NCBI RefSeq assembly: GCF_015864665.1
Contig: NZ_JADYWU010000003.1
Location: forward strand, 189,399-253,398
DNA length: 64,000 nt
Direction of reading: 5' to 3'
DNA from: Salinibacterium sp. SWN167
GTDB taxonomy: Bacteria; Actinomycetota; Actinomycetes; Actinomycetales; Microbacteriaceae
The notes below the pieces were generated by a model. That model was not told the origin of the DNA. It ran no database searches and saw only the letters and a program-made list of their open reading frames with translations. Below are positions 39,044 through 43,489 of the stretch, piece after piece. Made by a program: the position numbers and the translations under genes. Positions within the stretch are counted from its first letter, which is position 1, and every line of letters starts with the position of its first letter.

Positions 39044-40249
39044 ATGGACTGGCAGACACCTGAAGACACTGTTCCTTCGGCATTCATCACTGACGCAAAC
39101 GTGCGTTCACTCCTCGGCAAGCCCCCGGCGACGGGCGCGTGGCGCGAGGGCGATCCGGTAGGTCAACGCCAGTTCGTCACCATCACCGATCTCGCTTTAG
39201 AGTTCAGCCGCCGCCTTCCCTCAGCGCGTATCGCTTACGAAACTCACGGCACTCTCAACGACGACGCGTCGAACGCGATTCTCGTCGCCCACGCCCTCAC
39301 CGGTGATAGCCACATTGTCGGCAACCCCGGAAACGGGCACGCCACTGCCGGATGGTGGAACGATCTTGTCGGCCCAGGCAAAGCCATCGATACAGACCGC
39401 TGGTTCGTCGTCTCTCCCAATATCTTGGGTGGCTGTCAGGGCAGCACCGGTCCGGCATCTCACGCGCCCGACGGAGCCGAGTTCGGCGCCCGCTTTCCCT
39501 TCATCACGATCCGCGATCAGGTAGCCGCGCAGGTCGCCCTGAGCGACGCCCTCGGTATCGACAAGTGGGCCGCGGTGATCGGCGGCTCGATGGGGGGCAT
39601 GCATGCTCTGGAATGGGCGGTCGCGCATCCTGATCGCGTCGAGAAGGTAGCCGTTTTGGCCGCACCGCCTGTCTCCACAGCCGACCAGATCGCTCATAAC
39701 TCGGTTCAGGTCGAGTCGTTGCGCACCGATCCTGCCTTCGCTGATGGTGCGTACTACGACGCCGCCGATGGCGATGGACCCCACCGCGGGCTCGCTCTCG
39801 CACGTCGCCTCGCACTGCTCAACTACCGCTCTTCCGACGAGCTCAATGAACGCTTCGCCCGCACGTGGCAAAGCGAAGTGAGCCCGTGGGGCAAGGGCGG
39901 CCGCTATGCCGTCGAAAGCTACCTCGACTTTCACGGCAACAAATTTGCGCGCCGCTTTGATGCCAACAGCTACGTCACTCTCGTCGAAGCAATGAGCTCC
40001 CACGACATTGCCCGCGGTCGCGGCACCGTCGCTCAAGCACTGGCGCGCGCCACGATGCCCGCGCTCGTGCTGGGCATCGACAGCGATCGACTCTTCCCCG
40101 TGTCCGGCCAAGAGATCATTGCCGAGCACCTGCCTGGCAACATCGACGGCGCGCTGCCGCACGTCATCCATTCCCCATTCGGCCACGACGGTTTCTTGAT
40201 TGAGGATGCGCTCGTGAGCGCCCAGTTGGAACGCTTACTCGCTCTCTAA
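39044..40249 (+). CDS. metX: homoserine O-acetyltransferase
   Basis: A 401-residue alpha/beta-hydrolase-fold enzyme that acetylates homoserine with acetyl-CoA. The catalytic triad is Ser182 (GGSMGG), Asp348 (GIDSDRLFP) and His381 (FGHDGF). The length fits MetX. AAGGCGAC precedes ATG 39044. Its product is the substrate of MetY upstream. Confidence 0.96.
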   Translation: MDWQTPEDTVPSAFITDANVRSLLGKPPATGAWREGDPVGQRQFVTITDLALEFSRRLPSARIAYETHGTLNDDASNAILVAHALTGDSHIVGNPGNGHATAGWWNDLVGPGKAIDTDRWFVVSPNILGGCQGSTGPASHAPDGAEFGARFPFITIRDQVAAQVALSDALGIDKWAAVIGGSMGGMHALEWAVAHPDRVEKVAVLAAPPVSTADQIAHNSVQVESLRTDPAFADGAYYDAADGDGPHRGLALARRLALLNYRSSDELNERFARTWQSEVSPWGKGGRYAVESYLDFHGNKFARRFDANSYVTLVEAMSSHDIARGRGTVAQALARATMPALVLGIDSDRLFPVSGQEIIAEHLPGNIDGALPHVIHSPFGHDGFLIEDALVSAQLERLLAL

Positions 40250-40347: not shown

Positions 40348-41529
40348 GTGCAAACATTGCCACAAATGGACCTCACTACGAAAGAACGAGATCGCCTACT
40401 TCAGCGCACTGCGCGAGTAGCGAGTCTTAGTTTTCTGATCGTTTCGGTCGTATGCCTCAGCATCCCGGGGGCAGTGTCGACAACGACGCTGCTGCTGTGC
40501 CTCCCGCTCTATGCGGTCATGGCCGTGTTGCAGTTCCAAACGGGAAACAGCCGCTCGATCGGCTGGGTCATTCCCTCGTTCGTGGTGGGCATCATCGCAA
40601 TCCTTCTTATCGCGGGCACACCGGGTGGGCCGAGCCAAGCAGGGCTTTCTGCCGTGGCCCAACTCTCGTCAGCATCCCTCGCCTGTCTTGCCATCGTTTT
40701 GACGACCACGCTGCTGCGCCGCATCGTATTGCTCCTCAGTTTTCTCGCCGTAGCGAGCGTCACCATTATTTCGCTCGCACCGTTCCAACCGCCCGTGCGC
40801 ACTCTCGCCCTCGCGATCTTCGGCTGGATCCTTGCCGCCCTCATCGGCTTCTGGATTAGCTCGGGCGTTCCACAAGCCGTACGCCGCATCGCGAGCATTG
40901 GTCGTGCCCACCGCGCAGAACGCCAAGCCAGCGAGACCGAAGCCCAGCGTCGTCAGGGTGCTCGCCTGCTTCACGACACAGTTCTGGCCACTCTCACACT
41001 GCTCGCCCACTCCGGTGTCGGCGTTTCAGCAGAGGCCATGCGCCAGCAGGCCGGCGACGATGCTCGACTTTTGCGTCAACTTCGCCTCGGTGCCACCCCC
41101 ACGCCGCAAGCATCCGGCGACTACAACCTGAGCGCCCCCGTAAGCGAGACAGTGCTCGGCACAACGCTCGAATCAGTCAAGCAACGTTTCGGCCGCATGG
41201 GACTCGAAGTCAGCTGGCATGGCACCGGCCAGGTTTTGCTCCCCAGCGACGTTCTCGACGCCTTCCTGCTCGCCCTCGCTGAATGCCTCGAAAACGTTCG
41301 CCGCCACTCCGGCGTCACCGAAGCTCACGTCACGATCACCGAAGACAACACGACCGTTCGAGCCATGATCACCGACTCCGGTGTCGGCTTCATCCTCGAC
41401 GATGTTGATTCGGCGAGCCTCGGCTTCAAAGAGTCCGTTGTCGCACGCTTGAAAGAAGTCGGCGGACAAGCTCGACTGTTCTCCACCCCCGGCTCCGGAA
41501 CCACCGTTGTCTTGGAGGTTCCCCGATGA
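40348..41529 (+). CDS. sensor histidine kinase
   Basis: A 393-residue membrane kinase starting at GTG 40348, supported by AGAGAGG eight bases upstream; the open frame before it runs back into the metX end. About five or six transmembrane segments cover residues 25-170. The phosphoacceptor is probably His209 in ARLLHDTVLATLTLLA, followed by a HATPase domain with N-box CLENVRRHSG (Asn316), G1 DSGVGF and G2 GSGTTV. No extracytoplasmic sensor domain is present, so the signal is likely membrane-associated. The gene overlaps the next by ATGA and is in an operon with the response regulator at 42818. Confidence 0.88.
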   Translation: MQTLPQMDLTTKERDRLLQRTARVASLSFLIVSVVCLSIPGAVSTTTLLLCLPLYAVMAVLQFQTGNSRSIGWVIPSFVVGIIAILLIAGTPGGPSQAGLSAVAQLSSASLACLAIVLTTTLLRRIVLLLSFLAVASVTIISLAPFQPPVRTLALAIFGWILAALIGFWISSGVPQAVRRIASIGRAHRAERQASETEAQRRQGARLLHDTVLATLTLLAHSGVGVSAEAMRQQAGDDARLLRQLRLGATPTPQASGDYNLSAPVSETVLGTTLESVKQRFGRMGLEVSWHGTGQVLLPSDVLDAFLLALAECLENVRRHSGVTEAHVTITEDNTTVRAMITDSGVGFILDDVDSASLGFKESVVARLKEVGGQARLFSTPGSGTTVVLEVPR

Positions 41530-42779
41530 CCTACGCTCCCCCCGAAGAAAACACTCTCGGCGTCATCGTCGGCGGCAAACCACGCCATGCCAAGAGCGCC
41601 GCTGTCCGGCGCCTCGCGGGCGACGACACTCCCCGACTCATCGGACTCGGCACCGGCTTCGTCGGCATCGGAGCGGCCATTCTCGTGAGCCTTCGCGCAA
41701 TCTACGGCCTCGTGTGGCTCGTCATCCAATGGGACATCTACCCCAATCCTGTTGCGGCAGCCATTGCGTGGGTGCTCCTGATCGTCATCATCATCGGCAC
41801 CATCACGTTAGTGCAGCTCACTAGCGGACAACTTCCGCTCTGGATGTTCGTTCTCTTCCTTGTTGGCCTCGCCGCCGTCATGGCGCTCGACATCTTCGCC
41901 ATCTGGGATCTACACAACATCGGCGGCCACGCGACCTCCGCGGTTGCGGCCGGAATGGCGTTACTTCTTGTGCTGACGGTTCGCCCGAGCGCCGACATCA
42001 TCATCGCTGTCTCTGCGGTCGGCGCAGGATTAGCCGCCGCCATCGTGGTGAACGTGCCCCTGACTGAAGACAATATTGCTCCGCAGATCACCACCGTGGC
42101 GTTCGCCGTGCTCCCCACCGTGATTGGTCTCTCCCTCATCGTCAACTTCCGCCAACTCGTGCAGGTCGAGCTCGACCGCGTGCTCGTTCAGAGCACCCTC
42201 ACCGCACCACGTTTTGCCGTCGGCATGATGGCATCCGAAGAACTTGCCCGCCTCGACCTCGCCGCAGAAAAGCTGCTCGACTCGGTGGCAAACGGTTCGA
42301 CCAAGCTGCCTCTGCAACCCAAAATTGCCTCGACGGCGGCATCCCTCGCCACCGAATTGCGACTGCACCTCATTGAGGGCCGCCGCGAAACCTGGCTCTA
42401 TCATGCGATCACCGAGTCTGACCTGCTCGGCAAATCGGTAACACTTACCGACAAGGGAAGCCTTGCCGGTTTGCTCGACCCCACCCAGCGCGACGGCTTG
42501 CTCTCGACTGCGTGGCTCTTTGTGACTGACACCACCAAACGCGGGGCCAAAAACTCCGTCCACATCACGATCGCGCCATCAACTACCGTTTTGGCATCTG
42601 GTTTCGAAGACAAAGTGGCAGTCGGAATCTCGATCACCTCGACCGGAGTGGCACGAAATCGTGTTGACGCTTCCACGTGGGAAGCGGTCGCGAAGGTCGG
42701 AACGTATACCGACTCCATAGAGAACTCCAGCCTGCGCCTCGACATTGAATGCCTTGTCGAAAACCCCGCTGACCAATAA
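41526..42779 (+). CDS. membrane protein of two-component operon, no kinase motifs
   Basis: A 417-residue protein with about six transmembrane segments (about 36-215) and a cytoplasmic C-terminal half (about 220-417). The order of helices followed by an alpha/beta region (PRFAVGMMASEELARL, then GLLSTAWLFVTDTTKRG and VAVGISITSTG) recalls a histidine kinase core, but no H-box, N-box or glycine-rich ATP-binding motifs are seen. It may be a degenerate kinase that modulates the true kinase. ATGA overlap with the kinase and 38-base spacing to the regulator indicate one operon. The function is inferred from structure and context only. Confidence 0.65.
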   Translation: MTYAPPEENTLGVIVGGKPRHAKSAAVRRLAGDDTPRLIGLGTGFVGIGAAILVSLRAIYGLVWLVIQWDIYPNPVAAAIAWVLLIVIIIGTITLVQLTSGQLPLWMFVLFLVGLAAVMALDIFAIWDLHNIGGHATSAVAAGMALLLVLTVRPSADIIIAVSAVGAGLAAAIVVNVPLTEDNIAPQITTVAFAVLPTVIGLSLIVNFRQLVQVELDRVLVQSTLTAPRFAVGMMASEELARLDLAAEKLLDSVANGSTKLPLQPKIASTAASLATELRLHLIEGRRETWLYHAITESDLLGKSVTLTDKGSLAGLLDPTQRDGLLSTAWLFVTDTTKRGAKNSVHITIAPSTTVLASGFEDKVAVGISITSTGVARNRVDASTWEAVAKVGTYTDSIENSSLRLDIECLVENPADQ

Positions 42780-42817
42780 TTTTCGTAAGATAAGACGAAC
42801 GACCAGAGGAACTAATC

Positions 42818-43489
42818 GTGACTGAACCAACAAAGCGCATCCGGCTCGCACTCGTTGACGACCACCGAATGTTGCTCGGTGCGCTCACCGAGTGGATTCG
42901 TCAGGCCGCAGCCGACATCGACATGGTTGTCGCCGTGCCAACGTGGCCCGAACTCACAATCCACCCAGAGTTCCCTGTCGACGTTGTGCTGCTCGACCTT
43001 GACCTCAAAGACAACATCCCGGTCTCGCTCAAGATCAACACTCTCAAGTCCATGAACGTTCGCGTCGTCCTGATGAGCACCTATTCCGAGCCCAACGTGG
43101 TTCGCGAAGCTCTCGCCGCCGGCGCCCTCGGCTACCTCGTCAAGAGCGAAGACGCTGACATGATTGTGGAAGCAATTCGGGCAGCATCCAAGGGCGAATC
43201 GTTCATTTCGGCCGAGCTCGACTTGGCGATCAACGCCGACGAAATCGGTGGAGCCCCCAAGCTGAGTGCTCAAGAACGTCGCGTCATGGCGCTCTACGGC
43301 GGCGGCGAGCCCGTCAAGTCGGTCGCCTACCAACTCAGCATCTCTGAAGAGACCGCCAAGAGCTACCTCAAGCGCATTCGCGAGAAGTACCGCGTCGCGG
43401 GCTTCGATGTCGGCACCAAGGTAGCGCTGCGCAAGCGTGCTCTCGAAGACGGCATCCTCATCGAGACCGACACGATGCACCACCTTTAA
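42818..43489 (+). CDS. response regulator, NarL/FixJ type
   Basis: A 223-residue two-domain regulator. The receiver has acidic Asp14-Asp15, phosphoacceptor Asp60 (VVLLDLDL), Ser/Thr MST and Lys109 (YLVKSED). The C-terminal LuxR-type HTH (about 145-215) includes LSAQERRVMALYGGGEPVKSVA and ETAKSYLKRIREKYRVAG. GTG 42818 has AGAGGAAC upstream. It presumably acts with the kinase at 40348. The target genes are unknown. A hairpin terminator follows. Confidence 0.92.
   Translation: MTEPTKRIRLALVDDHRMLLGALTEWIRQAAADIDMVVAVPTWPELTIHPEFPVDVVLLDLDLKDNIPVSLKINTLKSMNVRVVLMSTYSEPNVVREALAAGALGYLVKSEDADMIVEAIRAASKGESFISAELDLAINADEIGGAPKLSAQERRVMALYGGGEPVKSVAYQLSISEETAKSYLKRIREKYRVAGFDVGTKVALRKRALEDGILIETDTMHHL

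Follow-up and report, generated by a model that had tools for sequence, protein, structure and literature searches.

A predicted membrane pseudo-histidine kinase encoded between a sensor kinase and a LuxR-type regulator in Salinibacterium sp. SWN167 and other Microbacteriaceae

A two-component sensor is generally regarded as a homodimer in which one protein acts as both kinase and phosphatase. A gene set encoding a second, kinase-like membrane protein beside a sensor kinase and a response regulator is found in Salinibacterium sp. SWN167, in a 64,000 nucleotide stretch (contig NZ_JADYWU010000003.1, positions 189,399 to 253,398) which we refer to as the window, and whose positions are used throughout. 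A preliminary description of this DNA had placed three same-strand genes here, encoding a kinase, a middle membrane protein and a regulator, and this arrangement was borne out:

40348-41529, + strand: HK, sensor histidine kinase of 393 aa, with GTG start codon and Pfam HATPase_c domain
41526-42779, + strand: MID, middle membrane protein of 417 aa, a predicted pseudo-histidine kinase (based on model, superprofile match and motif loss)
42818-43489, + strand: RR, NarL/LuxR-type response regulator of 223 aa, with GTG start codon, receiver and helix-turn-helix domains
41526-41529, + strand: 4 bp ATGA overlap of the HK stop codon and the MID start codon, the same in 101/109 loci

Fold, lost motifs and ancestry of the middle protein

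Modelling and sequence comparison together support well that MID is a pseudo-histidine kinase, predicted to have a dimerisation and histidine phosphotransfer (DHp) region plus a GHKL-type catalytic and ATP-binding (CA) fold, without a phospho-accepting histidine or ATP boxes. The AlphaFold model (m63ab11be1851, from a 46-sequence alignment) had a predicted local distance difference test score (pLDDT) of 76.7 and a predicted template modelling score (pTM) of 0.49, and consists of three parts:

residues ~43-208: membrane domain, six membrane helices in the model
residues ~209-297: pseudo-DHp, a DHp-like helical hairpin
residues ~299-412: CA-like alpha/beta domain without lid

The last of these has the CA-type order of strands and helices without the ATP lid (strand 305-309, helix 319-334, strands 344-349 and 363-373, helix 382-391, strands 393-399 and 402-412), and the corresponding elements of HK follow in the same order (287-292, 300-321, 325-332, 336-343, 355-370, 374-380 and 384-392). 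When the MID model was compared with the PDB using Foldseek, ranks 1-13 were taken by twelve histidine kinases and one phytochrome A (E 0.011-0.16), while 47 of the 50 VIA-align rows were kinases, phytochromes or ChpT-type phosphotransferases, with Z scores of 8.0-9.6 and mostly covering residues 289-413. These included HprS (Z 9.6, 2.9 Å, 109 aa), DesK (Z 8.8, 2.7 Å, 103 aa) and ChpT (Z 8.4, 2.9 Å, 106 aa, near the background of 7-8), as well as the RetS-GacS co-complex 7n0e. The preliminary description had proposed structure prediction of MID alone as a way to reveal an unrelated fold; the prediction returned a histidine-kinase fold, and on the basis of this fold and the profile homology described below MID was rejected as an unrelated membrane protein. 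Profile searches of MID against PDB sequences gave no histidine-kinase match, no Pfam or NCBIfam family was matched at E up to 1, and family scans of the MIDs did not find a kinase or GHKL family.

The same description had also noted that MID has the layout of a membrane kinase without H-box or ATP motifs, and this holds for its relatives. In a set of 84 MID relatives, non-redundant at 80% identity, from which six loci were excluded because their MID was broken, cut or paralogous, the DxGxG motif was absent throughout (0/84, and 0/30 for the b-type MIDs introduced below), GxG[TSG] was found once, and there was no conserved histidine column in residues 209-258, where scattered histidines occurred in 10/84. 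When the superprofile alignment was read by eye, the N-box Glu and Asn corresponded to L331 and D335 of MID and the G1 Asp to S372, and none of the three was restored in any of the 84 relatives. With these boxes absent, the reading of MID as an intact but divergent kinase was rejected. Six residues are identical in 84/84 relatives (W290, L291, A294, D309, R322 and W330). Two loci from different genera, L156 (G260:C1:758500-763000) and L157 (G009), have a MID frame that is broken near residue 180, either by a frameshift or by an assembly error.

There is good support for MID being a divergent paralogue of the adjacent sensor kinase. A superprofile of 144 MID sequences matched one of 145 HK sequences with a probability of 96.6% (E 5.6e-10, 253 columns), and the two stayed in register over the stretch between the third membrane helix and the G1 box. 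At the control setting the MID/HK score was 81.8, whereas the best of 60 block-shuffles reached 37.9 and the reversed profile 40.8, and we call MID a diverged kinase because the score is so far above these controls. For the cytoplasmic part alone, the same setting gave 31.4 (probability 35%) versus 18.2 for the best of 60 shuffles and 16.9 for the reversed profile. This homology became visible only after pooling the b-, c- and d-type relatives.

HK itself looks like an active sensor kinase, judged from its sequence and model, which show H-box His, N-box Asn, G1 and G2 boxes and a CA fold. It has about six predicted membrane helices, a DHp region with H209-D210 (HDTVLA) and an intact CA domain (Pfam HATPase_c, E 1.8e-7), and H209, D210, N316, D343, G345 and G347 are kept in 83/83 HKs. 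Its model (m4685b92d28a8) had a pLDDT of 82.9, and its CA domain, used as control in VIA-align, matched DesK with Z 16.0 (2.5 Å, 118 aa). Pfam HisKA_3 gave no match in HK at E up to 1. The best-scoring named family was the MacS-family sensor kinase (NCBIfam NF047322, E 2.6e-22), but membership was rejected, as the 79.5 bits are far under the curated cut-off of 300 bits. RR was matched by Pfam Response_reg (E 3.6e-11) and GerE (E 3e-9).

Linkage in relatives and further kinase-MID sets

Comparison across the Microbacteriaceae, also proposed in the preliminary description, showed that the linkage of the three genes is conserved. The survey covered 299 genomes of this family, scoring no more than 6-9 candidates in each, and found MID in 206, HK (E up to 1e-20) in 206 and RR (E up to 1e-50) in 207; by eye the lists of positive genomes were identical except for G113, a 77%-complete genome with RR at the start of a contig. 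HK, MID and RR were adjacent in 108 of the 110 loci fetched first, and the other two (L045 and L035) were cut by a contig end. These 110 loci include the window itself (L001) and are redundant, with 66/109 left at 85% identity. In 38 further and more distant loci the HK match always adjoined MID (38/38, with L129 and L148 representing one place, and HK cut or in two frames in L127), while RR was absent from the short L122 and L125 and on the opposite strand in L147. The nearest named record to MID is from Salinibacterium sp. NG253, at 99% identity. With linkage, predicted fold and profile-profile homology to kinases taken together, the earlier suggestion of a dedicated pseudokinase is well supported.

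The ATGA overlap suggests, from the sequence, that HK and MID are translationally coupled. Genome G007 contains a second, divergent HK-MID-RR set (L154:4840-8031), in which the HK-MID 4 bp overlap is kept and RR is transcribed oppositely, and because of this HK and MID look to be a tighter pair than either is with RR. HK and MID distances also co-vary (r 0.96, 141 pairs).

Three further kinase-MID-regulator sets, termed b (L169), c (L170) and d (L171), are present in the window genome, which thus holds four kinase-MID pairs. The gene order is HK-MID-RR in b and RR-HK-MID in c and d, and the 4 bp overlap of HK and MID recurs in b and c. Like the MID of the window (a-type), MIDs b, c and d matched no Pfam kinase family, and profile comparisons indicate that all four types belong to one superfamily: b-type versus a-type gave a probability of 97.9% (E 3.1e-13), b-type versus c/d-type 97.2% (E 2.9e-11) and c/d-type versus a-type 95.7% (E 8.5e-9).

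The types differ in how far they are spread. Across the order, the a-type profile found 10/297 genomes, all of them Microbacteriaceae. The b-type MID was found in 139/249 Microbacteriaceae genomes at E up to 0.001, some of the weaker matches possibly being other MID types, and the best 30 b-type loci were all HK-MID-RR sets. The c-type MID was present in 66/258 genomes of the order, representing 12 families including the Microbacteriaceae; in the best 30 c-type loci, from five families, HK was directly upstream of MID in 30/30, and a partial RR was seen at the edge of the fetched stretch in 21/30, with none in the other nine stretches. A phylum-wide search found MID in at least 5/256 genomes, although its negatives are weak, since only the best eight candidates per genome were scored and G299, with a weak c-type match, was missed. 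The phylum-wide profile matches include two genomes from a different family of the class, and in both of these HK adjoins MID as well.

Upstream of the gene set lies metX (homoserine O-acetyltransferase, 39044-40249), separated from HK by 98 bp. It is upstream in 77/77 loci with enough flank, a stable neighbourhood for which a functional link is not evident. Between metX and HK, 32 of these 77 loci have an additional LuxR-type regulator that is paralogous to RR and termed RR1 (L017:4064-4735, L030:4085-4747 and 30 other loci). RR1 was rejected as a fourth part of the system in the window, as the protein of the window genome which it matches best is RR, with 40% identity. Several relatives have a lipoprotein-like gene of about 283 aa before HK (L005:3722-4573, L010:3827-4675, L038:3721-4569 and others), possibly an extra sensing part; in the window, the 98 bp gap between metX and HK does not contain it. 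A promoter and terminator scan gave no promoter-like sites, and four terminator-like sites where 2.9 were expected.

A proposed gating role and its rivals

In HisKA_3-type kinases, the DxxxQ/H motif beside the phospho-accepting histidine serves phosphatase action, and two studies report that the phosphatase activity of NarX requires DxxxQ and is abolished when the catalytic residue is replaced (by Ala in the mutants of one study) (PMC3510030, PMC11502775). Position H+5 was compared in 143 kinases partnered with a MID, and Gln or His was found in none of these. The residue was Ala, Ser, Asn, Thr or Gly in 143/143 (83 a-type, 30 b-type and 30 c-type), and always Ala in the 83 a-type HKs. Six other kinases of the window genome, identified with the HisKA_3 model and each with a response regulator nearby, have Gln or His at the usual position (6/6), and no MID-like frame was found in the fetched 3.2 kb around them by the same search that recovers MIDs a, b and c. 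The a-type MIDs carry an invariant D244-xxx-E248 in the pseudo-DHp (84/84), but in the b- and c-types the aligned columns hold T/R or vary; this pair was thus rejected as a general phosphatase pair of MIDs, and it is for this reason that we do not claim MID as a phosphatase.

The most likely explanation, which we think probable without being confident of it, is that HK is gated by MID, which would act as its non-catalytic partner. MID would lie beside HK in the membrane as an obligatory partner, contacting it via membrane helices and/or DHp, in a heterodimer or a dimer of dimers. The two proteins would jointly sense a membrane or extracytoplasmic signal, and the conformation of MID would set the on or off state of HK. 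HK alone would autophosphorylate and hand the phosphate to RR, which would then control transcription. Switching off might rely on MID or on hydrolysis by RR itself; this is the least certain step, and it is proposed because Gln and His are missing from the customary DxxxQ/H position of the partnered kinases.

Several observations count against this explanation. The MID model is of moderate quality, with a pTM of 0.49 and pLDDT below 50 for residues 222-236; no match reached a Foldseek E of 0.001 (best 0.011), and the VIA-align Z scores of 8-9.6 are only slightly over the tool's stated background of 7-8, compared with 16.0 for the HK control, with the two top rows (Z 10.3 and 9.9) being non-kinase proteins matched on membrane helices only. 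The pooled comparison gave a probability of 33% for the cytoplasmic part alone, and the a-type MID and HK profiles on their own showed no cytoplasmic similarity. The reversed full profile still reached 51%, and part of the full-length signal is therefore membrane-helix composition. Species history alone raises the correlation of HK and MID distances and accounts for much of it, and linkage and co-divergence are equally compatible with a partner and with an operon mate. With regard to the phosphatase position, 29 of the 30 b-type kinases carry one of these residues at H+6 instead (His in 26, Gln in 3), which may do the same phosphatase job; the contrast at H+5 falls between kinase clades and so represents few independent events, and the HisKA_3 model used to find the comparison kinases may favour Gln/His. 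Finally, in Corynebacterium glutamicum the truncated inactive form of the kinase ChrS, further discussed below, itself showed no two-hybrid interaction (PMC9491836).

The alternatives differ in where they let MID act. It could act on RR rather than on HK, the pseudo-DHp binding RR or RR~P, either as a phospho-sensor resembling DivL or as a replacement phosphatase. The invariant Ala at H+5 in the a-type HKs and the lack of Gln/His in all partnered kinases would fit this, given the reported need for DxxxQ in NarX, as would the D244-xxx-E248 of the a-type pseudo-DHp and the binding of DivK~P by the kinase fold of DivL (PMC4211667). As the D/E pair is not kept in b- and c-type MIDs, there is no such residue throughout the superfamily, and b-type kinases may retain phosphatase action through the His/Gln at H+6. 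Glu is not known to stand in for Gln as a phosphatase residue, which also counts against action on RR, and we consider this alternative unlikely, if worth keeping in view.

Alternatively, MID could serve chiefly as a scaffold or signal receptor in the membrane, and its cytoplasmic domain would then be a vestige with no role beyond holding MID to the kinase. Divergence is faster in the membrane domain than in the cytoplasmic core, which might be expected of a receptor, and the C-terminal CA-like part is weakly conserved, but the six residues invariant in 84/84 relatives go beyond the needs of a vestige, making this rather improbable. A role as phosphotransfer protein like ChpT or Spo0B, with the histidine located elsewhere, seems very improbable. 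The predicted CA-like fold without ATP boxes has some resemblance to ChpT, and H293 and H281 are kept in 81/84 and 71/84 MIDs, but both fall within helix 265-297, the second and long one of the modelled hairpin, whereas the first DHp helix has no histidine column in the 84 relatives, and no histidine is among the invariant or near-invariant columns of the c/d-type alignment. MID was rejected as a phosphotransferase since histidine is absent from the right helix.

The gating of HK by MID may be one instance of something wider, although we offer this tentatively and consider it doubtful: a large actinobacterial class of split sensors, in which a catalytic kinase lacking the customary phosphatase residue would be permanently paired with a co-inherited membrane pseudokinase to form an obligate heteromeric receptor, the pseudokinase supplying gating and perhaps switching off, tasks which ordinary kinases manage by themselves. 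Our estimate for this was lowered slightly because of the His/Gln at H+6 of the b-type kinases. The MID superfamily, which carries no Pfam or NCBIfam name, consists on the present analysis of decayed kinases, and the kinases they accompany depart from the usual residues at the phosphatase position. Should HK and MID prove to be physically paired, nature would have provided a recurring system in which to study what a sensor gains from a pseudokinase, and names could be given to many unnamed genes for membrane proteins that neighbour kinases in actinobacteria.

Comparison with known systems

Pseudo-histidine kinases are known singly, while a co-inherited, multi-copy membrane family locked to kinases was not found in the open-access papers searched. 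By title and abstract this literature, with subscription papers mostly outside the scope, gave no description of an HK-MID pair, and nothing was found in it joining the Microbacteriaceae with a pseudokinase. The RetS/GacS system of Pseudomonas is similar in that RetS, a membrane protein resembling a kinase, binds the kinase GacS directly and thereby controls it, although the domains of RetS are different and it is not known to share an operon with GacS. The EsrISR and LiaFSR systems share the operon layout of a membrane accessory protein, a kinase and a LuxR-type regulator, but their accessory proteins are not known to be decayed kinases.

The Caulobacter pseudo-histidine kinase DivL (PMC4211667) likewise has a kinase architecture without phospho-accepting histidine and controls CckA signalling without kinase activity, and by analogy MID may exert a similar non-catalytic control of another kinase. 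In the same paper DivL is described with PAS domains and with its N, G1, F and G2 boxes retained, whereas MID has lost those boxes, and MID differs further in having six membrane helices and adjoining its kinase in an operon. An actinobacterial parallel is provided by C. glutamicum (PMC9491836), in which an evolved inactive ChrS promotes HrrS signalling and two-hybrid assays showed heterodimers of the native ChrS and HrrS, so that here too an inactive kinase aids another kinase, as may be the case for MID. The inactive ChrS is a laboratory-evolved protein with a truncated CA domain, however, whereas MID is naturally inactive, as judged from its lost motifs, throughout its family.

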